Shown here one piece after another: positions 3,466-42,283 of a stretch of DNA of 64,000 bases. Numbering within the stretch: the stretch's first letter is position 1; every line of letters starts with the position of its first letter. The translations under genes were made by a program, and so were the position numbers. Origin of the DNA: Buxus sempervirens (Eukaryota > Streptophyta > Magnoliopsida > Buxales > Buxaceae); the NCBI GenBank assembly GCA_947561395.2, contig OX387190.1:18222858-18286857 (forward strand), written 5' to 3'. Under the pieces are notes generated by a model, which was given only the letters and a program-made list of their open reading frames with translations, ran no database searches and had not been told where the DNA came from.

Positions 3466-6334
3466 TTTTTTTTTTGTTGGTAAACGAAGGAGATTTATAT
3501 TAATCAGAACACTCGAATATAGTTAACATCTCTAGCCTCATCAAACACCAGGCAGGAGAGAAAGCAGGGCAGGTGTACATCCAAAGACAAAAAGCAATCT
3601 AGAGCATAGTTTGCTAGATGATCTGCAGCATGGTTTCCTTCACTGAAAGTACGTGTGAGAAAACAACAGCAGTAATGTGGTTGCACAACTCCTTAATCAA
3701 GCTGATAGTTGGTCTGATTATCCAAGGAACCTTGGGGGAGGATGACGACAGCAAGTGGATGATAATCTGGGAGCCCCCCTCGATGATGATATGCGAGAAG
3801 TGACATGCCACTGCTGAACAGATAGCCTCCAAAGCAGCTTCTGCTTCTGCTAGTAAGCTTGAGTTTGCTGTTAAGATTGTAGCAAAAGAAGCCACATGCT
3901 TACCTGTAGAATCTCTTGCAATACTACCTGCAGAAGCTTTCGTCACCGAGGATCTGAACGCTCTATTGAAATTGATTTTAATGAATGGGTAGACAGGTCG
4001 TTTCCAGGAGACTTCAATGGAACGGCATTCTGGCTGTTTCTTCAATTTTTGTTCCTCCAAAACCACAGAGTTCCGTTGGAGCACCGCTAAACATTATTAA
4101 AATTGATATTGTTCCTTTCAATCCACATTGCCCAAGCAAAATTAGCCACCTGCGATAAAAAATTGTCCCTGTTAAAATCAGCTGATGGCTTGGGGATTTT
4201 TAGCACCTGTGAAAACCAGCAGACATAGGATGATTGCTGTCCCCAACTCTGTATAGCCACCCCAATGGCTTTAAACCAAACAGCATAGCCAAAGGGACGT
4301 TGGAGGAGAAGATGCTCAATAGTTTCCGGAGAATCTTGACACAGAGAACAGTTGGCTTCAATATAATCCAATCGAGAGTGGAGTAAATCAACCGTAGGAA
4401 CACCACCATGCAGACATTTCCAAATGAAAAGTTTGATTTTGTTTGGAAGATTTAACTTCCAGCATCTTGCCCAAACCAAGTCCTTTGCCAACTCATTAAT
4501 ACCAAGTAGAGTACGATATGTAGAGGCGACTGAAAATTTGCCTGTCGCCCTGCCCGACCAATGTCTCACATCTTCACTACCATGAGGCTCAATGCTCGTC
4601 GCTAAAATGTGACTTACCGCGGGCGGCTCCCAAAGGGAATTCAGCAGATTGACATCCCACCAACCAGTAGCATGGTTGATCAATTGATCAACAGTGATCA
4701 TGTTAAAAGAACCTGAATTTTTCTGTATCTCCAGCTTTGAATCAAACGCTTGAACCCATCTATCCTCCAAAATCTTGATACCCTTACCATCAACCACTGT
4801 CCACACGCATCCTTCCTTAATCAATGGTATCAGATCATGCAACTGCTTCCATCCAAAAGAATGCCTAGTCCTGCAAGATGCATCAAGAAAACTTGAGTCA
4901 TGAAAATATGCGCTTTTCATGATTCTAGCCCAACATCCTTTGTGATTTGAAGCCAATTTCTAGGCCGCTTTTAATAGTAGGGCTATATTCATCATTTGAG
5001 CACTTCTGATATTCAGACCCCCATATTTTGTCTGAAGTGTGACTTTTTCCTAGCAAATAGTATGCATGTCCTTGTCATTTTCTCCCTTTCTCCAAAGAAA
5101 GCCTCTCGTCAGTTGATGAATCTTTTCATTAACTCCCTTTGGCAAGCTATAGCAATCCATGTAATGTATTGGTTGAGCATTTAAAATCGATTGGATCAGC
5201 ACCATCCGACCCATCTGTGACAGCATTAAGGCCTTCCAACCCGAGAGTCGCTCATTGACTTTCGACAACACAGATGTTCAGAGTCTTTTGCTTTCGGCTT
5301 CCTACCCGGATTTGGCAAACCCAGATAGAAACTCGAGATGGGAAGACTTTTCACAGTCTTTTGCTTTCGGCTTCATGGTAATGCGATGTTGCTTTCCAGT
5401 GCTCCGACTAAACTGCAAGGAAGACTTTTCTCTGTTAATTTGCTAACCAGATTCAATGCAATACTGATGGAGGATTCTAACAAAATTGTGTGCTTCCTTT
5501 TTAGATGTACGACCATAGATAGTCACATCATCTCCATACATCAGATGGGATATAGGCATACCTCTTTTTCTTAATGTGATACCACTGAATCTGTGATCAA
5601 CTTCAGCTCTGGAGATCGCGAGAGACAACACTTTTTGACACATTATGAATAAATATGGGGATAATGGGTCTCCCTACCGAAAACCCCTACCCGCAGCAAA
5701 TTTACCCACAATTTGAACCAGTGAAGATGATGTTGTATGAAACAGCTCTAACACAATTCAATATAAGGTTTATCACCGTATCATTAAAGCCAAAAGATAC
5801 AAGGATCTTCTCCAAGAAATTCCAATTCATCCTATCATAGGCTTTGGAAAAGTTTAGCTTAAGAGCATAGAAACCTTTATCAAGAAAATTTTTTGATCTG
5901 GGTTTTGAAGGTTTCTTTGATTTCCAGAAAAAGCGAGCCATCTCATGGTTAATCATAATGTTGTCATGAATAGATCTATTGGGAACAAACGCCGATTGCA
6001 TGGGGGAAATCATATCTTTGAGGGAAGGCCTAATCCTATCTACAAGAAGCTTGGTAATAATTTTGTAAACAAAATTGCAGAGGTTGATGGGACGGAAATC
6101 TTGGATTTTTCTAGGATGGGAAGATTTTGGAATCAAGGAGATCAGAGTGTGGTTTAAACCATCAAGCATTAAACTAGAGGAAAAAAAAAAATTCTTGAAT
6201 AGTTTTCACAACCTCAGGTTCGACAACAACCCAATAAGTATGGAAGAAGATACCTTGGAAGCCGTTTGGTCCCGGGCACTTGTATGGGCCCATATTTTGG
6301 ACCGTGTTCCAGATTTCAGTGGCTGAAGGGATCC
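3466..6334 (-). mobile_element. LINE (non-LTR retrotransposon), degenerate and 5'-truncated
   Basis: A plant LINE lies on the minus strand. Its 3' poly(A) is the run of T at 3466-3475. Going upstream in element order from 6300: reverse transcriptase beginning with a CPGPNGFQGIFF-like motif (about 6230-6300), then DFRPINLCNFVYKIITKLL, the SKAYDRM motif and the catalytic YGDD (5527-5538); a connecting region (5050-5271); a zf-RVT domain (4087-4956) in which the last cysteine is replaced (HLLLQRPFG); and an RNase H domain (3504-4084) that reads INFNRA where LNVDGA is usual. Several frameshifts separate these blocks. The endonuclease is missing: the copy stops at 6334, exactly where an LTR terminus begins, so it was cut by that insertion or was 5'-truncated first. 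Confidence 0.85.
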
Positions 6335-10544: not shown

Positions 10545-11540
10545 GCTGCCCCTCTTTGCCGAAGTCACCTTGGGGATGAACGACAAAGAAGAAAAAGAAC
10601 CTTATTTTTGCACATTGCATTTCGGTCGACATGATTAACGAGCTTAAGTCCTCTTGATTTTCAAAGCAGCGGAAACACGAAATGGTTCCCACTAAGTTTT
10701 TTGGAGCTTGCTCACCCACACTTCGTGGGCTTCTTGGAGCAACTCCTGATTGGATCTGAAGCTTGCTCACCCACATTTTGCGGGTTTCTTGGAGCAATTT
10801 CTTGATTTTAATTAAGAAGAGATAGATTGAGAATTGGACTTAAGCTCGCCAACCTGTTTTGGCGTTGATGCAAGATACTCAACAAGGTTCTTTTTCTCTT
10901 GTTTGTTCCATTAAAGTTTTTAGGTGATTTCCAGTTTGTGGCTTTATTTTATCCTTTTGCAGACTTTGGATTTTAAGTTTTTTTTTTTTTAGCCAGATGA
11001 GGGTTGATGATGGTTCAGGAAGGAAGGAGTAGGGAGGAGGCTCTGCTGCTGTTCGTCATCTAGGGAACCTCGCACACCTGACCTATTCTATTTTTGAATG
11101 AATTTTTCAAAACTCCCTCCTTTATCATTTCCTCTTCCTGTTGCGCTTAGACGATTGGAATTTGTTGATTTCCCCTCACGTTCGTTGGAGAAGAGAATGA
11201 TTGATTTGTCCCACCGATTGCGTTCAAGTTAATTAACTGTGTGAGACTGTAGATTCAGGTGCTTCTTCTTCCCCATTTGGTTTCCATCGACCAGGCAATT
11301 TATCTAAATTTAACTGTGCGACACTGTGCATTGCGTTCAGGTTGATTAAATTGTGTGAAGGAGTTCGTACCTGAAATCTTGAGGAATTGCCCGAATTTCG
11401 GGAGCTAACGGCTTGAAGGAGTTGCTTCGGAATCGAGTTGCGCGAATGGTGAACGTCTAAAAATTTTTGAAAATGCATGAAATGAATTATTTGCTTTTTC
11501 ACTATCAAGTAATCTTCAAGTGACATTGTGTTTCTTCGTT
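10545..11540 (-). mobile_element. Internal non-coding remnant beside the 3' LTR
   Basis: Purine tract next to the LTR, then non-coding DNA with a 66-bp tandem repeat (about 10690-10800: GCTTGCTCACCCACA ... TTCTTGGAGCAA, two copies). No gag or pol domain is visible, so only the stretch just inside the 3' LTR remains. The outer edge is approximate. Confidence 0.5.
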
Positions 11541-13150: not shown

Positions 13151-13716
13151 TACATAATCTCTAAAAACAAAGATTTTGGAAATTTAAGCACCAATGTCCA
13201 TAATCCCTATAATCACCAAAAAAGTAGATAGTGATTATGGGCTTGATTATGCAATTGGATAGTAGAATCCGACCTTAAAATCCCAACCGAACACGGCTTT
13301 TAGATTATGTAATCAGATTCAAGTATAATCCAGATTCTATAATGCCCACCAAACACCCCCTTAGGCTTATATATTTAGTTAAGTTAGTTTCTCATTTTTA
13401 GTAATTGTCCATTTGTTATTATTATTCTTTACTAGTGGCTTCATCATGTGCTCGTGTCTGAGTAATGCTTATTTTCTTCTCCTTTTAAATAAACCTTTAT
13501 TTTATTTAATTGTTTTTTTTTTTTTGTTCAATTTGAATGTACCATGGGTTGATCATCTTGGATGTTAATTACCTCGTGAATGTTGTTTATCCGTTGTATT
13601 TGTTGGTTTTAAGAAGGACGAAACAAACCTGACCTCTTATGATCTTTCATTTTAAGTCTGGTTATTTGCTTATACAATAATGAGGGTTTTATATGTGAAC
13701 AGAAAACACAGCGAAA
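13151..13716 (+). promoter_or_regulatory. Upstream region and 3' splice site before the FAR1-like ATG
   Basis: No reading frame. A T-rich stretch ends in GTGAACAG at 13695-13702, a good 3' splice site 14 bp before the ATG at 13717, so the gene probably has a 5' UTR exon further upstream. That exon was not located. Confidence 0.45.
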
Positions 13717-15738
13717 ATGGATAGTGCGGAGGAATTGTCATCTAGATCAATTGATGGCATTGAAGACACCATCGATAGGGATGTTGATGGTTTGCAAGAA
13801 TCAATACAGACAGCATATTTACCAAAGATTGGGATGGCGTTTGATTCAGAAGACGACGCACATCAGTTTTATAATGAGTATGCAAGACGAACTGGTTTCG
13901 GAACGAGAAAAGACTTACGGCACACGCATCAACGTACGGGCATCCTCCTGGATAGGGTTTTTTGTTGCTCAAAGGAAGGTTATCGTCGGACAGATAAAAG
14001 GGATATGGCGGTTGTAAAACATCGTGCAGATACAAGGACTGGGTGTAAGGCAAGAATAAAAATTGTATTGGAAGCGAGTGGAAAATATATAATTACACAG
14101 TTCGAGGAGGGGCATAATCATGAGTTACTTTTGCCAAGCATGGTCCATATGTTACGATCGCATCGGAAAGTAACAGAGGCCCATGCAGCTGAAATTGATC
14201 TTGCAGATTCGACAGGGATACAGCCCAAGAGAACTGTCGAAATGATGAGAAGGGAAGTAGGTGGCGTTGAATGCCTAGGATTCATGCGGGTAGACTGTCA
14301 GAATTATTTGCAGTCCAAACGTAGGGTAGCCATGCAACAAGGAGATGCAGGAGCCTTATTGGAATACTTTCAAAGAAAACAATCGGAAGATGCATCCTTC
14401 TTCTATGCCATGCAATTAGATGAAGACGATCTTATTAGTAACATATTTTGGGCTGACTCTGGGATGATGGCAGATTATACTTACTTTGGTGACATGGTCT
14501 GTTTTGACACCACATATAGAACAAACAAGTATGGTAGACCGTTCGGGTTATTTGTTGGTGTTAATCATCACAGACAAATCAAGATCTTTGGCGCTGCCCT
14601 ATTATATGATGAAACCGTTCAGACATTCAATTGGTTATTTGAAAGCTTTGTAAGAGCAATGTCTGGTAAGAGGCTGAAGACAATTCTCACTGATCATGAC
14701 AAAGCTATGACGAGTGCAATAGCTTCGGTGCTTCCGGATACATTCCATCGCTTCTGTGTTTGGCACATGTTCCAAAACGCTACAAAGCATCTTAGCGATG
14801 TGTTTAACAGTGAGAAATTGTTTGCAAAAGATTTTAGTAGATGTGTTTACGAGTATGAAGACAATGAGGAATTCATAGAAGCATGGAACACAATGATTAA
14901 CAAATATGATTTATCCTCGAATAGATGGTTGAAAGCAAAGTTTGAGGAAAAAGAGAAATGGTCTCTGGCATACGGAAGGAACACGTTCTGTGCAAACATG
15001 AGTACGACACAAAGGTCCGAGAGCATGATTGCTTCACTGAAAAGTCATCTACAGAGGCAAAAGGATTTATTGGGATTCTTGGGGCGCTTCGATGAATTAT
15101 TGGATGATAGGCGGTGTGAGGAACTGAGGGCTGATTGTAAGATGATAAATAGTACTCCTGCGTTGCCGATTGAGGGAAATCAAATGTTGGAATGTGCACG
15201 AAACGTCTACACAGAAGCAATCCTTGAATTAGTTCGTAAAGAAATACTTGATGGTGTCCTTAATTGTGAGATGTATGTTTGTGGGGAAGTTGGCGGATTG
15301 GTTGAGTATAAAGTCACTAATGATGCCGAACGGAGAGTTCGTCAACATACTGTTACATTCGATCGCGAAACTACTTCAGTCAATTGTAGCTGTAAGAAAT
15401 TTGAATTCAGTGGCATATTGTGCAGTCATGCATTTTATATTCTTCGTGCTAATAGGATAAAGAAGATACCTGATCAATATATCTTGAAAAGATGGACTAA
15501 AGATGCAAAGAGTGGTTTGGTTGCATATGAAGAAAGGACTGTTGCTGAGGAGGACTCGAAAGCGGCAATTGGGAGGAGGTTTAGAGAATTGTGTCGCAAT
15601 TTTGTTCAAGCTGCAAGGAAGTCCTCACTGCATGAAGAGTCCTCTGCTTTTGCGAGTGATCTGGTTAAACAGATTGAATGTGAGGTGAATAGAATAGTAA
15701 AAGAAAAAAATAAAGCTAGAGATATGGATGATGCATAA
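13717..15738 (+). CDS. FAR1-RELATED SEQUENCE (FHY3/FAR1 family) protein, 673 aa, C-terminally truncated
   Basis: Encodes a protein of the FHY3/FAR1 family, transcription factors derived from Mutator-like transposases and acting in the nucleus. One long exon holds, in order, the FAR1 DNA-binding domain (residues about 41-137, with CCSKEGYR, CKARI and GHNHEL), the MULE transposase-like domain (about 255-355, with CFDTTYRTNKYGRPFG and FCVWHMFQNATKHL), and a SWIM zinc finger CxCx9CxH (C557, C559, C569, H571). The frame is clean for 673 codons. It stops at TAA 15736-15738, but the same frame stays open and FRS-like beyond it, so the original protein was probably longer. The three defining domains remain, so a product is possible. 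Member of the family is clear; which member is not. Confidence 0.85.
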   Translation: MDSAEELSSRSIDGIEDTIDRDVDGLQESIQTAYLPKIGMAFDSEDDAHQFYNEYARRTGFGTRKDLRHTHQRTGILLDRVFCCSKEGYRRTDKRDMAVVKHRADTRTGCKARIKIVLEASGKYIITQFEEGHNHELLLPSMVHMLRSHRKVTEAHAAEIDLADSTGIQPKRTVEMMRREVGGVECLGFMRVDCQNYLQSKRRVAMQQGDAGALLEYFQRKQSEDASFFYAMQLDEDDLISNIFWADSGMMADYTYFGDMVCFDTTYRTNKYGRPFGLFVGVNHHRQIKIFGAALLYDETVQTFNWLFESFVRAMSGKRLKTILTDHDKAMTSAIASVLPDTFHRFCVWHMFQNATKHLSDVFNSEKLFAKDFSRCVYEYEDNEEFIEAWNTMINKYDLSSNRWLKAKFEEKEKWSLAYGRNTFCANMSTTQRSESMIASLKSHLQRQKDLLGFLGRFDELLDDRRCEELRADCKMINSTPALPIEGNQMLECARNVYTEAILELVRKEILDGVLNCEMYVCGEVGGLVEYKVTNDAERRVRQHTVTFDRETTSVNCSCKKFEFSGILCSHAFYILRANRIKKIPDQYILKRWTKDAKSGLVAYEERTVAEEDSKAAIGRRFRELCRNFVQAARKSSLHEESSAFASDLVKQIECEVNRIVKEKNKARDMDDA

Positions 15739-20258: not shown

Positions 20259-21376
20259 TCAGTCTGCCTCACTTGCTTCATCGTCGTCATCCTCGTCTTC
20301 GTCCTCTTCACCCTCGTTACGGTGCAGTTGAAGTTGCGACACTGCTCCCTGTAACTCTGAAAGCTGCCGGCCTTGCGTCTCTTGGGTAGATCGGATCAGT
20401 GCCAGTTCTCCACGCGATTGTTGCTGGACTTCATAAATCCTTGACAAATAATCCATAACGGCAGGCGGATCAAATGAAGGAGCAGCCGAAGATGAACCAG
20501 AATGAGAGGTTCCAGCCTGGGAAGATGATTGACGACGTGGACGAAGAGCACCAGCTCGAGTAGCAGCATTAGCATGTGCAACACTTTGTGCTACGGTGGT
20601 AGGCCCAATAGGCGGTGGAAGCACTAGAGGTCGCTCAATTTCTGGGATTAATACGTCAAGTCCTTGCATGAGTCGGGTAATGAGGCAAGGAAATATAAGT
20701 TTCCGCTTCCGTTTGACGTTAATTATAATGTGTAGCATGGAACGAACCATTTGGGAAGGAAGGTCTATTGAATGACCTTGGAGTAATGCAAAAAGAAGCG
20801 AAGTCTTTGGAGTGGGAGGGTATGTAAATGACCCACTGGGCATATGTTGGTGCTCATAATCCGAAGAACAACCGACCGATGAGTTGGAATATTATCAATC
20901 ACTAGATGTGTTCCATAGAAAGGGGTAGTATTGTTGCACACAAAAGATGCCATATGAGTAGGTGAAGGGGGGTCTGTCTCATGGTAAGGATATCGAGGCC
21001 CAGGCACTCTTGGTATCCCTAATATCTGAGACATGACATCAGGGGTGATGGAAATTGTTTGACCGCGAAAAGACACTTTGAATCCGAGAGGGCTAAGGGA
21101 CCAACCATACATGTTTGCATAGAACTCCCGAATAAGGATGGCTTGGGGTGCAGGAAGATTTTTGAGCAAAGGCTCCCAACCCCTAGAAGTAAAAACTGAA
21201 GTAATCTCGGGATCAAGCTCGCGGATTATTACCTCCCGCTCTAACAGGAGACTCCGGTTGTGCAGGTATTGACGAAACCTCATTTGCGCATGGCGGTCAA
21301 TAAATATTTCTGTATCAACCTCATGAGGTTGTACGTTAGACGTAGACCCTCGGGTGCGTCTTTTAGGCATCTGCAT
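20259..21376 (-). pseudogene. Putative plant transposon protein (Transposase_32-like)
   Basis: Two overlapping minus-strand frames make one homology unit. The first starts at 21376 with MPKRRTRGSTSN and has the family block YANMYGWSLSPLGFKVSFRG and ITPDVMSQILGIPRVPGPRYP. The second continues with FTYPPTPKTSLLFALLQGHSI and ends in a long acidic tail (DEDEDDDDEASEAD). This matches the plant transposon protein domain found beside retroelement-like genes; its biochemical role is not established and the class of element is uncertain. The copy looks broken about once. No flanking repeats were found. Confidence 0.65.
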
Positions 21377-22920
21377 TAACAGTATAGTATTAGATCTCGA
21401 TGAAAAGAAAGGTTGAGATGCATATATTCAAGCAATGGAAGAAGGAGAAAGGAAATATAACAAAAATAAAATAAATAAGATGAAATCGGTTCAAATATAT
21501 ATATATTTTTTTTCTTTATTATTCCTTTGATTACAATCGTTATTTTTTGCCGGCATCCAAAGTTACATTGGTGAGTACTGTGCTTAGGTGTTTCTGTTTG
21601 GCATGGGCACCTTGGGTATGTACTTTATGAAATTGCATAATACATGGTTTTCTTTTTTGCACCCACTCATTCATTCACTAAATTTTTGTAAGTAAATTTC
21701 ACTTTCATGAGAAAAAGTGAGTGGTTCCTCTAATCATTCTGTCAGTGAAGAGTGAACATTATTAGGTTATCCTTCAAAGACATGTATAATTTTTCAAACA
21801 GATTTTTCCTTTATTCTAAGCAAATGCTCCCTTTATCTTCCATTATATAGTTACAAAATAGCTTCAATAAGTTCAAGATATATGATATAGGCCAAGCCCC
21901 CATGTCCTATGATATGGAGATAAGACAAATCTAAATCCTAGTGGCATGCCCACAGGTGACACCTGCACCACTACCTGCTTGTGGCAATATAAAATCTAGC
22001 ATTTTCCATCAATTTCTTCCCAGAAGGTTGCCTTAAAAAATTTCATAGAATTGCCTAATCATTGTAGCAATTTTGAGATTTTATTGTTGTTAAATTGTAG
22101 GTTGGTCATAATACTTAAAATAATAGTTACTTTAACAAACAACTAGAATTTGCAAGTACGTGAACAAATTTCATAGAATCAGGTCTTTAGAATCCAGTTA
22201 TTGGAATTGGATGTGTGGAGTTAAACCTAAGTAAAATTTTAGAATCTTTTAAATAACACTATTGAAAAAGGTTGGTTTAAATAAATTTAATTCTGTGGAA
22301 AAGAAAATGACCTGTATAAATTTGGCAATGTTTCTTTTTTGTAGTAGATGTTAAATAGTTTTTTTTTTTAAACTTTTTTATTGTTGCAATATGACTAAAT
22401 GGCACTTTAAAAAAATAGTCTACCTTATTTTTAAAAACACTTTTAACATTTTTTCAGTTTTTACAAAAGTTCTGTTAAACTTAATCGAAGCATTGTAAAT
22501 TTCTCCATTCCCTAGAGTATAAACTCCCTAAAACTGAAGCACAGAACGTTAATAGAAACTGATTCCAGTTGTTAGGATAGTGCTTTATATTGCCTTCATG
22601 ATGCAAAAATGTACTCCACTTCAATGCTTAGGTGTTTCCGTTTTAAAAAATTTCAGAGGAAAAACGACAAGAGTCGTCTTCTTCAACGTATAATCCATCC
22701 TAAATGAAATCCTCAAAGCATGGAATAAATATTAAAAGATACACCCCACGTACCTTGGACGAACGCAAATATGCCCTGGATCCAATCCCAAGCACAAATT
22801 CGAAAATTCCTGGCGAAACCACTACGAATAGTCAAAGGGGTGGCGGGGGCGGTGGTTTGAAGGTTGCAATAAGAGAATAGAAGGGCGCACGCAAGTATTT
22901 AGGGTTCGTGGGTTTTTTTT
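21377..22920. other. Non-coding, AT-rich spacer
   Basis: No gene, RNA or element terminus is recognised. A phrase like GCTTAGGTGTTTC(C/T)GTTT occurs near 21586 and 22629. Confidence 0.5.
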
Positions 22921-22924
22921 GAAA

Positions 22925-23220
22925 TTTACGCCTTGACGCTCGAGCGGCAAGAAAACGCGTAGAACGCGTCATGTTCAGGTTCGCTATGCTTTGGTAGTTT
23001 AGCCTTGACGCTCGAGCGGTCGAAATGCGCGTAGAACGCGTCACTCTCGGGTTTTCTGAATTTTTTTCAATTTGCCTTGACGCTCGAGCGGTCAAAAAAC
23101 GCGTCACGCTCGGTTTTTCTGAGTTTGTGAAAAGTGCGCTTGACGCTCGAGCGAGCGTAAAACGCTCCAAATTTTTTGAAAACCAACCCCAATTCGGAAC
23201 CTCCCGCTCGAGCGTCCGGA
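22925..23220 (+). repeat. Degenerate tandem array of about 70 bp built on CGCTCGAGCG
   Basis: Five units begin with TTGACGCTCGAGCGG or a variant (about 22932, 23004, 23077, 23139, 23205), most followed by ACGCGT(C). The core CGCTCGAGCG is a perfect 10-bp palindrome. The array is GC-rich in an AT-rich area and lies just before the minisatellite. It resembles the palindrome cassettes inside the long LTRs of this window, so it may be a remnant of one. Confidence 0.7.
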
Positions 23221-23262
23221 AATCGTCACCCTTAGTATTTTTTTCCATCTTTTACGAATTGT

Positions 23263-23477
23263 AAGTAGGGTTGGTTGGACTTGTAAGTAAGGTAAGTTGG
23301 ACTTGTAAGTAGGCATGGTTGGACTTGTAAGTAGGGTTGGTTGGACTTGTAAGTAGGGACTTGTAAATAGGGTTGGTTGGACTTGTAAGTAGGGTTGGTT
23401 GGACTTGTAAATAGGGTTGGTTGGACTTGTAAGTAGGGACTTGTAAGTAGGGTAGGTTGGACTTGTAAATAGGGTAG
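23263..23477 (+). repeat. 22-bp minisatellite, block 1
   Basis: About ten units of GGTTGGACTTGTAAGTAGGG type, period 22 bp with some 14-bp short units. The block ends at the solo LTR 23478-25754 with the duplicated GGTAG (23473-23477). Confidence 0.95.
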
Positions 23478-25754
23478 TGTGAGACATGGGGAAAAATCAC
23501 CGGAGTGATCGTCCCTCCGTCAACACACGGGCTCAACGCAAAAATTGGGAGAGTCGCCACCATTCATGATTTTGGGGTGAGAATGGACACCAAACAGTTC
23601 AAAAGTAGGCAAAAATAGCCAAAAGACAAATTCTAGGATAAAAATAATCCTACTTGAAAATCAAATCCAGAGATGGGTAAGGGGATTAGATTATGAACGG
23701 GGGAAGGTGTTAGGCACCCCCATTCATCCACACGAAGTGGTTGCCAAGTGTATATTCATGCAAAAAAACAAAGTAAGAAAGCTTGCTAAAAATCATGAGA
23801 AACCTTGAAAAAGGAACAATGTATGATATTTTCACATGAAGATCCAAATGGATTTTAGATCTTCTCTTATGTCAATATCACTTCTGGAGTATTTCAAAAG
23901 ATGGAAATCAAAGTAGAGGTTGCATAAAACCAAGTTAAATCAAATCCGGAAAATTCGGTAAAAAGTATGCCATTTGCCTTCAAATCATTCAAATCCAATT
24001 CTGAATTCAACCAAACCAAATCCATTTGAAAGATTAGGGTAAATAAGAGTCTCATGCAAAATTTCACTTCATTCCAATGAAAAATCTAGGAGTTATGCTC
24101 CTTTGAAGTTGCTGTTGGGGATTTTTAAAAGTAGTAAGTGGGCAACTTTGGAAAATTGTCTAGAAAAATCCACTACATAGAAATCCACGAAATTTGGTGT
24201 GATTGAAGTCTGTATGGCCATCTTTCAACAGAAACTAGCCTCATACAAAAATCCCTTCGGGTGTGCCTTGGGTGGTCTCCCGAACAGGCCCCGAAGATCA
24301 CAGATTTACCCAGAAAAATGCAAATGAGCAGTTCTGAGTAAATCGGCTACCAATAATTCAAATGGAGTTCAAAAATTATGAAACTAACTAGATTTGAAAA
24401 TAGACTCATAAAGGAGTACCCAGAAATAAAAATCACTCGAATCGGACTTAAAACGAACACATGGCGGTCCGTCGAAGTGACAAGTTCTGTACTTGGACCT
24501 GAACTGTCCACTTAACTTCGACAGAAAGGTGTCAAAAATCGGCTAGATAGAAACTTATGAAATTTGGTGGACATAAACTAGACAGCCTCACCTTTCCCAT
24601 GGTTCTGGAATCGCCCCAAAATTCATCCGGATGATGAAGTTACGGACGTCCGAAGTAAGGGTACAGGTGCTGTCAAGTTAAGCCACTTTTGAAGAAATCC
24701 AAGTCCGAAAATTGATAAAAAATATGTGATTCGTGTGAGATGAATCCAAAACCTTTGAAAAACATTTAAAAACACTCCAGAATTGATTTAGGCCATTTAT
24801 TTGAGATTTATCACAATAAATGCAATAAACCCCAAATATGAGCCTATCCCGCCAAAATAGTGATATGTGTGCAAAAGTGAGAAAAACCAAGCAAGATCCA
24901 TACACATGCATATAGATTCAACAAAATAGGTTCTAGCATAGCCTAGGGTTCCGTTCCATTATCGTTTCCCTCTGTTCTCTTTAAGATAATCAAGGGTACT
25001 TTGAATATGGAACGGTTTACAATCAATCAAAAAGGCCTTATGCTACATAGGTTCTAGTACTAGGGTCAATCCCCAGTCTCGTTTCTCCTAGATCCGCCTT
25101 CACGTTTTACGGCTAGGGGAGTCTTGAGATACTTTGAGCCGGGGAAGGATTTCCACACATACAAACAAGGCTTTACACTACAGAAAGGTAGAAGAAGAGA
25201 TCTAGATCTATGAATGTAAAGACAGAAAATAAAAAGAAAAGTTGAGGCTTACCTGAGTGCTGGAGACGATTCCACAGCGGTTTCCTTCTTCTCTTGGAGT
25301 TCTTCTTTGCGAGAATTCAAAACAAGAGTTGTGTGCCATTTGCTCAAGGAGGAGGCTCCTATTTATAGGCAAGGGCTAAGGTCATTGGTAGACACAAATT
25401 AATGTCTAGAACCCCTCCAACCTAAACCCTAAGGTTATTTCCGCGATTTCCCCTCATTTAATGAGGGACATGATGGTAAAAGTGAAAAGCTCTCGGAAAA
25501 CCCTAATTTTGAGCAAACTTAAGGTATCCGGTATATCAGACCGGATAACAAAGGGCCTTGAGGTATCCGGTACATGGTACCGGATACGCTAAGGCCCACA
25601 CGTATCCGGTACGACCATCCGGATACGGGGAGGAGCACTTGTATCCGGATTGAGCATCCGGATACAGGCAAAAAATTATTTTCTTCAAATTCTGTGCTGG
25701 CTTTCCAGGAGATAATGATTTTTGATGATTGTTTGTGCAATTTGGGTGTCTACA
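23478..25754 (-). mobile_element. Solo LTR (2.28 kb) inserted in the minisatellite
   Basis: Plus-strand sequence begins TGTGAGACATGG and ends GGGTGTCTACA. Exact 5-bp duplication GGTAG lies on both sides (23473-23477 and 25755-25759). On the minus strand a TATA box CCTATAAATAGGA lies at 25358-25369, so that is the LTR sense. It shares GAGTCGCCACC with the other long LTRs but is a distant member. A palindrome cluster lies at 25525-25672, for example arms GTATCCGGTAC/GTACCGGATAC at 25563-25587. No internal region. Fossil. Confidence 0.85.
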
Positions 25755-26146
25755 GGTAGGTTGGACTTGTAAGTGGGCATGGTTGGACTTGTAAGTAGGG
25801 TTGGTTGGACTTGTAAGTTGTAAGTAGGGTAGGTTGGACTTGTAAGTTGGGTAGGTTGGACTTGTAAGTGGGCATGGTTTGACTTGTAAGTGGGTATGGT
25901 TGGACTTGTAAGTAGGGTTGGTTGGACTTGTAAGTAGGCATGGTTAGACTTGTAAGTAGGGACTTGTAAGTAGGGTAGGTTGGACTTGTAAATAGGGTAG
26001 GTTGGACTTGTAAGTGGGCATGGTTGGACTTGTAAGTAAGATTCGTTGGACTTGTAAGTAGGGACTTGTAAGTAGGGTTCGTTGGACTTGTAAGTAGGGT
26101 TGGTTGGACTTGTAAGTAGGCTAGGTTGGACTTGTAAATAGGGTAG
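25755..26146 (+). repeat. 22-bp minisatellite, block 2
   Basis: About eighteen units of the same 22-bp repeat as block 1, with AGGGTTGG, GGGCATGG and AGGGTAGG variants in recurring order. It is bounded by two LTRs, each with the GGTAG duplication. Confidence 0.95.
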
Positions 26147-29100
26147 TGTAAGCACCTCATTTTTGCGCTCCCGGAAGAGCCGGAAATGCAAACCCTAAAC
26201 AGAAAGTCAAACCTTGAGAAATGGAAAATTGACTTTTTGATCGAGTGAAAATTGGCCACCTTGCTTTATCTCAATGGATAGAGAATCCCGACACGAGTAC
26301 AACGCAACTGAGTTTGCTGGAATCAGAGCCTGGATGAAGGTTCTGTGGGCCGGTCAACTTGAGGGAGAGCCGAAAGTTGACTTTTCCTCGAACCCCGTGC
26401 CGAGTGCTTAGCCCTATGTCATTAAATAAAGGGCTCCGATACAAGTCTAGCGCAATTAAGTTTGCTCAAATCGGAGTTCGGATAAAGGAGATATGATCTG
26501 TCGAAGTTTCCGAGCAGCAAAGCCAGAAACTGCACACGTGGCGCAGCAACTGCACACGTGGCAGCCAAAAGTAGCAAAATATCTCAGGGACTAAATCTTA
26601 AATATCCAAAATTCGTAGGGACCAATCCAGAGATATCCAAAAGTGTCAAATCGGTCGAATCGGTCAAGTCGAGGGGCAAATCCGTAATTTTTTGATTTGT
26701 ATCCAGTCAAATATATCGGATACACATAGGTTTGTGTATAACCGGCATCAAATGCCGGATACAAAAAGATTTTCGCTCGAGATTTGCGCCGATCGCCCGA
26801 CAAATTCGCGGCGGCATTAAATTTTCGCATAATTGTGTTTTGTATCCAACATTAAATGCCAGATACAAAGAGATTCCTGTGTAACCGGCCATGGAGGCCG
26901 GATATGAAGCGAACCTAGTGTATCCAGCCTGAGTTGCCGGATACATTAAGTTTGTCTATAAAAGGCAAACACCAGCCCATTTCCGAGGGTTGGTGGTCTT
27001 TGATTGTTTCCCTGCTCCCCTCCCCCACATGCTCCCCTCCGAATCCCTCCTCTCTCAACTCCCTCAGCCCTCTTTCACCTCCCAAGACCAATTGAAACCA
27101 CTCCCATCCTCCTACTCCTTCTTCTTCACTTGTTCTCTACCAAGAGTGGGAGGCATTGCTGTTGCTACTAAGAGGTGGAGTCCCCAGCTGGTCCTTTGAT
27201 ACAAAGAAGTCATACACCCCCTAGGAAGAGCTAAGGATTACTAGGTAAGGTTCCTCACCATATCATGTTCATCATATATTAAATTCGGATTTTTTTTTCC
27301 ATGGTTTTCTTCTTCTAGTCTTCTTCCTTGGCATGGCCTGGTTTCCATGCATTTTTATGCATGCACATGGTAATCTCTCCATAGCACGAAGCCACCACTA
27401 GTAGGAGGTCCACGTAGGTCTTAGTAAGTAAGCATGAAGGTCCATTCCCACCCACTTTGCAGCATCCTTTAACTGCTGTTTCTGGTGTTATTTTAAGCCT
27501 CTTGCAGTAGGAGCATGTTCCTACTTCTCCATCTAATGTATCCCTATGTAAACCCCCTTCTCTCACCCTTCTCTACATTTTCGTGGGATTAAGCATGAAG
27601 CCTTGGGTTTAGACGTTGCTAAGAGGTGGACGAAATGCATGATAGATCGCGGTTTATCTCACTGGCCTTCTTGCATATATTGGGTTTTGCTTTGCTGATT
27701 TCTTTACCTCTTGCATGCTGTGTGGATCTTCTTCTGATTGTTGGTGACAAGTACTAGGCTTACTTAGTTGCATTCGTAGTCATGTATGTTAAATTATCTT
27801 TTTGCATGCATGCATGTTAAGCATGTTACTCCCCCTATGCAGTAGCTATACCTAGGGTCAAGGTAGTGAGCATGCATGTTTTGGTCAATCATGGGAGCAT
27901 GCCTCAAGTCCTTGATTCAAAGGGTTCTCCATGGACCCTTGTCATGTGCTGGGATGGGGATTCAAAAACCAAAGCAGGGACACCTTAGTCCCTGCCATGT
28001 TGACACACATGATCCCAAGTGGAAGAGGCAGCCCGGATGCCTCTTCCCCCCATTGCCTTGATGGAAAGTCCCAAAAGAAGGCCGAAATGGGGTCTCCCCC
28101 ATGTCTGAACCACTGTGAGCCCACCCCGGGGCCCACACCATTGCTAGAATACCCCTGGAAGACTCAGAAACCCAACCCCCTTTGAAAAATCCGAAAACCA
28201 GCTCCTGTGTATTGATCAGGCAACTCAGGCCGGATCAACTGGGACCTGTGTATATCCGGCAACTAAGGCCGGATATACTGGTCCCTGTGTGTAGCCGGCA
28301 TCTCAGGCCGGCTACATTGCCGAAAACCCCATTTTCCTATTTTTGCTTGGTTTTGCGCGACTTTCTTATTCTTCCAATCGAACCGGATGTACCAACAGGG
28401 TTCCCAGGCCACCCGGGAACCCAATTTGGGGCTTGGACCATGGTCCAACTTGGAAACACTAGTGGGCCTTCCAACGAGGCCCACCAAGCCCAATAAACCT
28501 AAAAGCATGAGAAATAAGCAAGTCCACCCGGATTTGCTTATGGAACCGGATGGACCAGACCCAATGCGGTCCACCTGGATTTGTTTTCTGAAATGATATC
28601 TGAATTGCATGGTTTGGCCGAGACCACGGGCGAGGGCCTATCGGGCCCGCCAAAGACCACTAGTCAACCTAAGTTAGGGTGCAAGCCCTACACTTCTAGG
28701 ACTTAGGCTTTCAAGCCTAAAATTGGGCTATAGGCCCCAAGCCCAATGACCAATCCACTCTGGCTCAAATTAAGAAGAATAAATCAAAGCATTTTGGCAA
28801 CCATCATGGGGGCCCACCTAGGGGCCCGCAAACCAACGCCGGCCCACTATTTGCATGAAAACCACTTAAGCTTCAAACCTGAACCTTAATGTAAAATCAA
28901 CTCACTTGACCTAAGCCCACCAGGGACACCGTGGGCCTTCCAATGGGGCCCACTCCATCAAACTCAGACCACCTAAAATTAAGCAAAATAAAATCAACTA
29001 AAGGGACCCACACCAACTCAGGTGGTCCCGCGAAGACTTAATCTAAATTGCATGCTGGATTAGGAACCGGGTGAGAACCAAAAGAGAGCTGACTCAAACC

Positions 29101-29304
29101 AGGGAACCCACGGGACCCGTCATCTGACGGGGTGGTTTGGGGCATCTACGGACTTCCCCAAACCGCAACCGAGACCCTACTTAGAATCTCAAGCCGCAGA
29201 CCAAAGCCTAATAGACAATATTAGGCACCCAGGTGTCTGCCTGCACCTCCTCAAGCGGTGGCGACTCCGAATTCCCCCCGTGCCGCGTTTCCCACGCACG
29301 CACA
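26147..29304 (+). mobile_element. Solo LTR (3.16 kb) inserted in the minisatellite
   Basis: Begins TGTAAGCACCTCATTTTTGC and ends CCCACGCACGCACA, flanked by exact GGTAG duplications (26142-26146, 29305-29309). Its start matches the LTR in the FAR1-like gene. The TATA box is CTATAAAAGG (26955-26964). The 3' part carries the family block (CCGTCATCTGACGGGG, GGTGGCGACTCCG). Palindrome clusters at 26700-26947 and 28205-28316 both use a TATCCGGC/GCCGGATA word. No coding internal region. Fossil, opposite in sense to the LTR at 23478-25754. Confidence 0.85.
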
Positions 29305-29530
29305 GGTAGGTTGGACTTGTAAGTGGGCATGGTTGGACTTGTAAGTAGGGTTGGTTGGACTTGTAAGTAGGGTAGGTTGGACTTGTAAGTGGGCATGGTT
29401 GGACTTGTAAGTAGGGTTCGTTGGACTTGTAAGTAGGGTAGGTTGGACTTGTAAGTGGGCATGGTTGGACTTGTAAGTAGGGTTGGTTGGACTTGTAAGT
29501 ATGGTTTGTTGGACTTGTGGGACTTGTAAC
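29305..29530 (+). repeat. 22-bp minisatellite, block 3
   Basis: About ten further units. The array decays at its right edge (GTTGGACTTGTGGGACTTGTAACATG). Confidence 0.95.
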
Positions 29531-29859: not shown

Positions 29860-32800
29860 TCATACCTATAAACAATGCAATCATAAGTTTATGTACGCAC
29901 CTGAATGTTATTAGTTTCAAATAACCTTGTTATTGAACATGTGACAAGTAGGTCTTACCTCTTCGGCTTCTTCACCTTCAGTAGTCTCCGCTTCATGTGT
30001 GTTTGCTGCCTTAGAAAGAACGATGTCCCGCACTTGGTTCGAAGGGTGCTTAACGAGGTCAATAAAGAATTTATCCCTAAACTGTGCCATATAACTCTGA
30101 ATTCATAGAAGATGTACTTGTGTGTTACTAGCGACGTACTTGATAATTATAATTATAAAAAAACATTTAAGTTATATGTGCACCTGATCAAATTCTTGAG
30201 ATAAGGTGCTGCCATCCCACACCTCCATGAATTTCATCATGAAGACACCACAATCAGACTTGACGGTATATAATCACATCACATCACTTGTAAGAAGCTA
30301 ACATATGTACGAAGCAAAACAAACCTAACGGCTTACCCGTTGGTTTGGTGTGGGACCTTAACCCGCCGCAACTCCCACAGTAGAAGTGGAAATTGATCAC
30401 CACCTCCGAAGTCATGTAAGATCTTATCCAACATCTGGATCTACAAGTGACGAAGCGAGTGTCAATATGATAAGTGTTGTAAATGGTATGAGAAAATTTC
30501 ATTAATAAAAAAATTACCTGCGTTTCAATTATGGATTGATGTCCCGCACGACGCCCCCCATCCATTGAGTCAAGCACATCCACTCTCCACTCTTTTAGGT
30601 TTAAAACTAAAAGAAACCAATGATTGCGCAGATACATGGGAACAAAAATCTACATACAAGTAACACACCCTTATAAGTAAAGAACTTACTACAGACTGCT
30701 AAGTAAGGATAAAAGCATAAAAAATCTGAAACTAATCATTTGTGAATGTGGCACATTGCATCCCAAGGAACTTACAAGATTGCAGGCAACCACAGAATAC
30801 CCTAGTCGCCCTGGATCGAAGTAAGGAAGCAAGGATTCGGTGGAACCACGATAAATTTTCATCATCCACTCCTACATAATATATGAAAGGAAATTTTAGT
30901 CATTAGTCTAGCCTTGAACAACAACATTTGTACAATCATAACGACTACTAGTGCTATCACAAAAAGTGCTTACACAAATATATGTGGGACAATAATGTTA
31001 GCTAACTTTGCGGTTAGTCGACAATTGTTGGTTCTTCATAAGACATGCTCCAAAAGCATTGATAGCCTATAAAAAAATACCATGAGCAATGACATGTACA
31101 ATTGAATAAACAATATATTATTCACAAGATAAGCTTTGCATACCACACTATTAACATGTTTGTTGTCTAACAAACATGCCAATTCAGTTGCCGACACAAA
31201 TATGGAATCAAATTTGAATATTATTTCACTGAAAAAAACAAGCAGGAATTATTCACTACGAATTATAATACATAAATAATATTTACAAGTTAGTTTAGGA
31301 ATATTATCTTACTCAGAATACTTGTTTCTGCGAACGTATTGTAGGATTGAGCTTCCTTCTGGGCCCAATCAAGGACGCTAGCGATGGCCAATAAATGGAG
31401 TGCGATAACGTTTCCCACGCGTCTTCTTGCGTGACCCTCTTCGAGGTTTGGTTACCTCGGTCCCGGTGCTGCTTCGAGACGGAACTATCGCCACCTCATC
31501 CTCTTGCATTTTATTTATTTTTACCTCCACAACCACCGCCGTGTCGAGAGCGGTGGTATGATCACCGCTCTCGTGGGTGCTATGATGGGAGGGTGCCATC
31601 ATTGCTTCATCAGGAACATCAGGCATGGAACAATCGGGAGTATCCATATGAGCAGGGCTCTCACATCGCACGTGGATATCAGAGGGGTTCACGGTTTCCC
31701 TTGACTTCACATGATTTAGCATCTCGTTATACGTGTCCAACATCCTCGTGAGATAACCTTGAATAACCTGGAATACACAACACCTAATCATAAAACATGC
31801 GGAGGTGTTCGTAATAAGAAAACTAATAAAAAATAAATAAATAAAACCCAATCTTACAGGATCTGGATATCCACGAAATTGCCGAAGATCAATGAAATTT
31901 AATTCATGGGCTTCGCCTAATGCCTCATCTTCGATACAGCTGTCAACACGATGCTCAATCACCTACAATATTTAACGTGTATATTAGTGAGTACATAGAA
32001 ATGTTGCATTATTTGCAAAATTGACAACAAAACCTACAATAATCAGTTCAACTCAAATATATATATGTATACCTTCCCATTTACATATCCACCTAGCGCC
32101 AGTTCATCTTTCTCCCTTTGGAAAAGCAATGCATCCGTCCACGCTGCCATACGTGGAGTGGTAGGAGGTGTTGCTTGACCAACGATCATCCGATTGTAAT
32201 ACAAATACTAAGCAACAATTGAAATATCATTAGACACACTATAATTATCATAAGCTAGGATAAAGAAGCTAATGCATCTTTTAAATACTATACACACCTG
32301 TAAAAATAATAAGCAGCCATTGACGGATTTCCGTTTGCCTTTTTGAAACTTGGCTACATGATGCATCAATGTGTCTAAAAGGTACTTCCCCCAGTTGTAA
32401 CCTCCTATCCTCTCTACATCGACCAGCAAGGGAAGATAGGATGCACTCACATCAATCATTGAAGATGGACTTACTAAGGTCGTCAACGAATATAATACAA
32501 AAGAACGGATCCCCTTATGATCGTTCTCTGGGCTCTTCAAGCTCTTCTCAACATTCTCAATAGGGATGCTTCCATTGCGTACCCCGTAAAATCTATGCAA
32601 CTCTGTCATATCGGGGATTTCTGATTTAGATGTATCAACATCTATCCCCTCTATGGGTAACCCAATTATAGTCTTCACGTCGTGTGTGTCAAAGAAAATA
32701 TTCTGGGACCCAACTCTGATACATCTCTTCTTAGTATCTACATTCGGAAGAATCCAATGATAGAGTCGCCGATAAAGCTTCGTTGCGTGTAAATTCAGTA

Positions 32801-33445
32801 GACAGTGAAAGCCACTATCTCTAAGGCACTGCTCCTGAGAAGCGGTGAATGAAAGACCGTGCATAAATTGTAACGCCCCGGATCCGAGTCACGAAATAAC
32901 ACCGTAACTCATCCCTGGAGGTTAATTTAAAACACAGGATCGCAATATCGGAGTGAAGGAAAATCATGAATACAACAATAGCTATATAACAGAGTGCGCT
33001 AAAATATTCCCAAACTAAAATAAAACTCACATGTCCAAGTAACTACCCGCAAGTATCGAGCTCTCCAAGAGTATCTGAAAACAAAACGAAAGCAACGGGG
33101 TGAGATACGAATATCCCAGTGAGCAGCACATGCATGCACAAATACATTTATTTCAGTTCTAAAACATGCCACGGTTATAAACCATATACAATGATGATTA
33201 CACACATATTCCGAATAATCCGACTAAACTTCAATAATCCAATTCATATCAGTGCGGAAAACCATCAGGTAAATCAAGTAATAACAATCCGTTTCCAATC
33301 CCGAAGATATTGATAAAATAATGATTAATTGACAACAACATAGCAATTAACCATAATTTCGTATCTCAAGATATAATTCCAGATATACCAATGTCATATA
33401 ACACAAAGTCTTCTCATAACCATGCCCATGCCTCCAAATGTATAT

Positions 33446-41870: not shown

Positions 41871-42283
41871 TTGCAAATGTTGAAGAGGAAGGTGGTGTTG
41901 TATACGTTGAAGGATTTTTTGAAAATCCTCTGCCTCTCGCGCTCGTCGGAACAGGTATTTGGGCGTTCGTCGACTTCGTTCGAATAGGTAGAGGAATGCC
42001 TAAGCGAACCACGGTCTAATGCCTCTTTGGTCTAGTGGTTGATATGGTCCAAAACCATTCGGCCGAAAATAAAAAGTAACGGCTCACGGCCGAAAACGAA
42101 AACTAACGGGCCTGAATCATTAATCGCCGTTGTCGCATTCTTTTAACCAAATGGGACGCATGTCGCGCTATCGTCGTTCGAATGGTCATTCGAACGACGA
42201 TTGAAAAGAGAGGATTCGGGTTGGCCAAAGGTTGGTTGCTGATTTGTTTCTATATTCTTTCTTTCCTATGTCGGCTTATTTCT

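Follow-up and report, generated by a model that had tools for sequence, protein, structure and literature searches.

Two solo LTRs interrupt a single 22-bp tandem array in the 64,000-nucleotide stretch of the Buxus sempervirens genome analysed here (the window), and both are bordered by the pentamer GGTAG at an identical position in the repeat. Such a coincidence raises the question of whether some property of the array directed both insertions to one phase of the unit, or whether a more ordinary explanation suffices.

Two solo LTRs within one array

The array and its two inserts have the following features:

23259-23477, plus strand: array block 1, 22-bp units, ending with the left GGTAG of LTR1
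23473-23477 (left copy) and 25755-25759 (right copy): target-site duplication (TSD) GGTAG of LTR1
23478-25754, sense on the minus strand: solo LTR1, 2277 bp, TG...CA in sense orientation, reading TGTGAGACATGG...TGGGTGTCTACA on the plus strand
25755-26146, plus strand: array block 2, 22-bp units
26142-26146 (left copy) and 29305-29309 (right copy): TSD GGTAG of LTR2
26147-29304, sense on the plus strand: solo LTR2, 3158 bp, TG...CA, reading TGTAAGCACCTC...CACGCACGCACA
29305-29530, plus strand: array block 3, 22-bp units

Both inserts have TG...CA termini and a 5-bp duplication, GGTAG, on each side. Array sequence directly abuts either end of each of them, and they are therefore solo LTRs rather than parts of longer elements. 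The two sites are flanked by identical array sequence, CTTGTAAATAGGGTAG on the left and GGTAGGTTGGACTTGTAAGTGGGCATGG on the right. An earlier reading made from the sequence only had described these coordinates, duplications and shared contexts, together with the opposite sense and differing sequence of the two LTRs, and its description is exact to the base.

The two LTRs cannot be aligned end to end, their best match being 78 columns around CCGGATAC-type repeats. These repeats lie upstream of a TATAAA in LTR1 as well as LTR2. Both LTRs also contain GGTGGCGACTC, starting 84 (LTR1) and 48 (LTR2) bases from the 3' end, which resembles the PBS-like sequence ACTGGCGACTC found after LTR1 3' ends elsewhere.

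Other copies in the genome support the assignment of 23478-25754 and 26147-29304 as LTRs. The 12-base end word of LTR1, TGTGAGACATGG, occurs 11,895 times in the whole 676.5-Mb genome, and a 17-mer with one restricted flank letter occurs 143 times; the corresponding LTR2 16-mer, also with one flank letter restricted, marks 4,881 ends. Among 100 of the 143 LTR1 matches, a large minority of 3' ends adjoin a PBS-like sequence, while among 100 of the 4,881 LTR2 matches a smaller share of 5' ends are preceded by a purine tract. Since many of the listed ends of both types thus lie beside a PBS-like sequence or polypurine tract, both represent LTR families. We use the names PBS and purine tract on the basis of position, and the PBS-like sequence of LTR1 ends is presumably similar to the PBS of Ogre/Tat elements (Ty3/gypsy lineage).

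When both LTRs and one GGTAG for each are removed, the three blocks join into one run of approximately 38 units, as had been claimed. Most units are 22 bp long, with some of 14 bp and 7 bp. The exact insertion context is present in three copies in this emptied array (two used, one free), indicating that the array did duplicate a block, and GGTAG itself occurs 9 times within 827 bp. A block duplicated by the array in this way might suggest that one occupied site was copied, or that its flanks were transferred by conversion within the array. We consider this extremely improbable, as copying an occupied site would also copy its LTR, whereas the two LTRs differ in sequence and orientation and each has its own TSD pair. 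The same three properties uphold the view that the insertions were two independent events.

A Mutator-like host element

The array had been taken for a free minisatellite locus. It lies instead inside a large Mutator-like element (MULE) that is dispersed in the 676.5-Mb genome. Arrays of 22-bp units with the core GGACTTGTAA account for 10,952 adjacent unit pairs genome-wide, and the context word has 230 matches. Twenty further loci, fetched from the first 100 of these 230 matches, contain 22 arrays of 0.5-1.6 kb. The left flank resembles that of the window in 22/22 arrays (78.6-92.7% over 164-284 columns), and most right flanks are also alike (87.8-99.6% for pairs of at least 500 bp, among 60 of 483 listed). 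Beyond the array, the window copy includes:

13699-15738, plus strand: transposase ORF of 679 aa with FAR1, MULE and SWIM domains (PF10551, 5.8e-28; PF03101, 1.9e-25)
20259-21427, minus strand: two overlapping partial Transposase_32 (PF20167) ORFs, both below the Pfam cut-off in the window
22666-23171, plus strand: CGCTCGAGCG-rich repeats (~72 bp) to the left of the array, common to other MULE copies
32208-32888, minus strand: PMD/DUF1985-like ORF, neither match reaching the Pfam cut-off
42154-42223, minus strand: right terminal inverted repeat (TIR) of the window copy, 78.6% to the TIR query

A TIR of approximately 70 bp is present at both ends of four other copies (L012, L016, L025 and L027), and more diverged TIRs are found at both ends of L013, L014 (one end partial), L020 and L026. 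Six compact copies were checked for a 9-bp TSD: the duplication is exact in three (L012, L016 and L027), matches at 8 of 9 bases in L025, and is unclear in the remaining two (L014 and L020). DNA of the transposase ORF is approximately 97% identical in L037 and L038, where a TIR lies no more than a few kilobases away. In L009, L015 and L022 the Transposase_32 region forms a single longer ORF that passes the cut-off, and the PMD/DUF1985-like ORF is also present in L009 and L022. The TIRs and 9-bp TSDs of the other copies, the MULE-domain transposase ORF of the window and the shared flanks therefore place the array inside a large MULE. The window copy now spans approximately 31 kb, nested inserts included. 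Neither its left TIR nor its own 9-bp TSD was found when sought, and homology to other copies ends near 11096. Further to the left, ORFs resembling DUF4218 and zf-RVT at 634-1623 and 4090-4959 are remains of other mobile elements.

The TIR, the 9-bp TSD and the ORF combining MULE, FAR1 and SWIM domains are shared with autonomous MULEs that encode a FAR1-type transposase. Unlike these, the host element has Transposase_32 and PMD/DUF1985-like ORFs, a long internal 22-bp array and large copies, and two of its derivatives (L016 and L025) are long inverted repeats in which each side has its own TIR, flank and array. Paired arrays in long inverted arms were seen at L016:3254-6686, L025:2872-7102 and C1:8161747-8164825. 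One further array, at L019:5490-5990, has an insert of approximately 0.5 kb after 38 units, near the right end of the array; TG...CA ends were sought on this insert and are absent.

Insertion phase and target sequence

If a repeat-bound factor or a positioned nucleosome offered one phase of the unit to integrases, other LTRs in such arrays should share it. Phase was measured as the number of bases from the start of the GGACTTGTAA core to the LTR junction, and the genome was searched for a GGACTTGTAA unit joined to an LTR end word in four family-by-orientation classes. Three of the four classes gave matches, with no LTR2 antisense junction in a GGACTTGTAA array genome-wide. Eight independent junctions were found besides the window pair, all in arrays of other sub-types than that of the window. 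The end words are only 10 or 12 bases long, so the junction LTRs belong to related families and are not the same two elements: over the whole LTR, L033 and L035 are 86% and 94% like LTR1, L036 is LTR2-like, and L029 and L032 are nearer LTR2 beside the junction or at both ends. Both ends were seen at L030, L031, L035 and L036, and one junction only at L029, L032, L033 and L034. The junction at C11:10886192 was counted as a duplicate of L033 by its identical matched text. A looser pattern meant to catch every insertion that starts with TG was discarded; it gave 3,813 matches, and the 100 listed are mostly ordinary units of another array sub-type.

The window pair lies at phase 19 and the eight other junctions at 18, 11, 6, 2, 11, 4, 1 and 8. 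The ten junctions form 2 same-phase pairs of a possible 45, against 2.05 expected, and the phases of the eight others are not clustered on the circle (R 0.32, Rayleigh P ~0.44). The sequence-only reading had proposed scoring phase at other loci, where random phases would speak for chance, and scattered phases are what this scoring returned, albeit for related families in arrays of other sub-types. Phase targeting could draw on the identical context of LTR1 and LTR2, on a third junction (L031) one base away from the window phase, and on a slight excess of LTR1-type antisense junctions in arrays (4 against 1.2, P 0.03). Against it, the other seven junctions, in arrays of other sub-types, lie at 11, 6, 2, 11, 4, 1 and 8, and 0/22 window-type arrays at the 20 fetched loci contain an LTR, L019 having just its insert without TG...CA ends. 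Targeting of this kind is thus very unlikely, and the repeat phase is not targeted by LTR insertions. The solo LTR at L035, 94% like LTR1, is itself flanked by a GGTAG duplication, at phase 1 rather than 19. At L029 and L033, which share another array sub-type and where one junction each was seen, the presumed TSD GTAAC lies at the same phase, with the end words in opposite array orientation at the same pentamer.

Two insertions in one array might also point to an insertion hotspot, an idea we rejected because junction numbers are near random expectation. There are 4 LTR1 antisense junctions against 1.2 expected (P 0.03), a mild excess of the LTR1 type alone, and 1-2 LTR2 sense junctions against 0.9. 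Among ten insertions, 0.15 same-array pairs are expected, taking ~300 arrays, itself an estimate that assumes 37 units per array. Finding two insertions in one array is mildly unlikely, for a case that was picked post hoc. With uniform chance per insertion, the exact context in this array would be hit in 0.4% of cases and the window phase in 4.6%.

The simplest alternative is pure coincidence, in which sequence at this scale hardly matters to the integrases and two random insertions happened to fall at one phase. The scattered phases elsewhere, the number of same-phase pairs, equal to expectation, and the near-random junction counts all agree with it. It can be weighed against the sequence around other LTR ends. 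Flank matrices were built from 57 LTR1 and 80 LTR2 ends, none of them from the window. These were kept from the 100 of 143 LTR1 ends (17-mer) and 100 of 4,881 LTR2 ends listed, 43 and 20 respectively being dropped as internal (similar to the PBS-like or purine-tract flank) or duplicate. All LTR2 flanks come from contig C1. T is scarce at the first TSD position (-5; p 2e-5 for LTR1, 1.4e-4 for LTR2), and A is scarce at the last (-1; p 0.013 and 5e-5, respectively). In LTR2 flanks, C is also rare at -8 (2/80) and G is favoured at -6. The flank lists are imperfectly clean, and the distant position -15 deviates as well (p 7e-4 for LTR1, 0.028 for LTR2); perhaps deviations at distant positions arise partly from the restricted neighbouring letter.

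GGTAG itself is over-represented. It precedes 43 LTR1-type ends against ~2.8 expected (roughly 15-fold) and 9 LTR2 ends against ~2.1 (roughly 4-fold), these being fold figures with approximate denominators, and the LTR1 figure uses a 12-mer common to several related families. If the copies in the window and a duplicated locus are excluded, 42 ends remain for LTR1 and 7 for LTR2 (P for at least 7, 0.006). The background was 209 matches in 191,452 positions on both strands of the window and 20 loci, and the expectation assumes 57% external LTR1 ends (a fraction taken from the 17-mer and applied to the 12-mer) and a 0.75 correction for the restricted letter. A weak TSD preference is therefore real at both LTR end types.

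This bias agrees with a pattern published for plants. In the available part of Jedlicka et al. 2019 (PMC6911290), plant LTR elements, both nested and non-nested, have a 5-bp TSD whose first base is A, C or G and whose last is C, G or T, with T under-represented at the left edge and A at the right. LTR1- and LTR2-type ends show the same avoidance of T and A at the edges and, as in the nested cases there, insertion was into an older element. The nested pairs described in that part of the paper are LTR elements within LTR elements, whereas the host here is a MULE-borne tandem array.

How far the preference accounts for the shared site differs between the two LTRs. Scored on matrices from which it was excluded, the window site comes 19th of 1622 for LTR2 and 95th of 1622 for LTR1; two-sided scoring places it 12th and 156th, respectively, of 811. 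Weighting by the matrices raises the chance of the window phase from 4.6% to 11.7% for LTR2, but lowers it from 4.6% to 3.8% for LTR1. With the GGTAG enrichment factors, the chance that an insertion into the array falls on GGTAG rises from 1.1% to ~15% (LTR1) and ~4% (LTR2). Applied to the eight other array sites, the matrices are only marginally better than at random positions (Fisher p 0.03 by end word, 0.055 pooled). The pooled value is safer, since L029 and L032 were scored with the LTR1 matrix yet are more LTR2-like, and L030, L032 and L036 score poorly on their assigned matrix. The TSD preference thus helps to explain the LTR2 insertion more than the LTR1 insertion, which it explains poorly. 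That the matrix does not lift the LTR1 phase above uniform suits pure coincidence, but the significant base bias in the TSD and the excess of GGTAG at both end types do not, and we regard that reading as rather unlikely.

Most probably, the two LTRs represent independent, ordinary insertions, with a weak shared TSD preference, a site multiplied by the array and chance together accounting for their position, and nothing recognising phase. We infer the following order of events. A MULE carried an internal 22-bp tandem array, into which LTR retrotransposons of two abundant families would have inserted in separate events, with a 5-bp GGTAG duplication produced by each; the body of each would later have been lost by recombination between its own LTRs. 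Both integrases may favour the same weak, roughly symmetrical type of TSD, in which the first base is not T and the last is not A. The array supplies GGTAG 9 times, 3 of them in identical wider context, and the remainder of the coincidence would be chance. A common TSD preference, together with an array that repeats GGTAG, would thus account for the shared site of LTR1 and LTR2, the rest being chance. The earlier suggestion of a target preference, or of a duplicated favoured site, survives in part: a weak sequence preference and three identical contexts exist, while a preference for one repeat phase does not emerge from the eight other junctions, which scatter, with the reservation that their arrays are of other sub-types.

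A conserved array core

The repeat unit combines a constant core with a variable spacer. At the ten positions of the 10-bp core GGACTTGTAA, the major base has a frequency of 0.92-1.00 in 972 window-type units; for another sub-type (266 units) the range is 0.89-1.00. Because the words used to pick the loci contain all or part of the core, the conservation is to some extent due to selection of the loci. In the 12-bp spacer, which differs between sub-types, the major base falls to 0.62 and 0.39 in parts.

VANDAL elements are MULEs that are not known to have TIRs. According to the available part of one study (PMC5735166), they carry tandem VANC-binding motifs in their non-coding DNA. The array described here resembles these as far as that part of the study (PMC5735166) goes: a short tandem motif in one orientation lies in the non-coding DNA of the element, and array sequence varies by subfamily. 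The motif differs, being GGACTTGTAA here. By analogy, GGACTTGTAA arrays might serve as docking platforms for a DNA-binding protein encoded by the element, as VANC motifs do, and a bound, open state could mildly favour the landing of LTR elements; we put this forward as a speculative and rather doubtful idea.

Chance, combined with a weak TSD preference in an array where good sites are multiplied, thus resolves what looked like a site-specific double insertion. The greater value of the locus may lie in the array itself, as plant MULEs carrying 22-bp arrays with a constant core and a drifting spacer offer a possible lead on VANDAL/VANC-like motif arrays.
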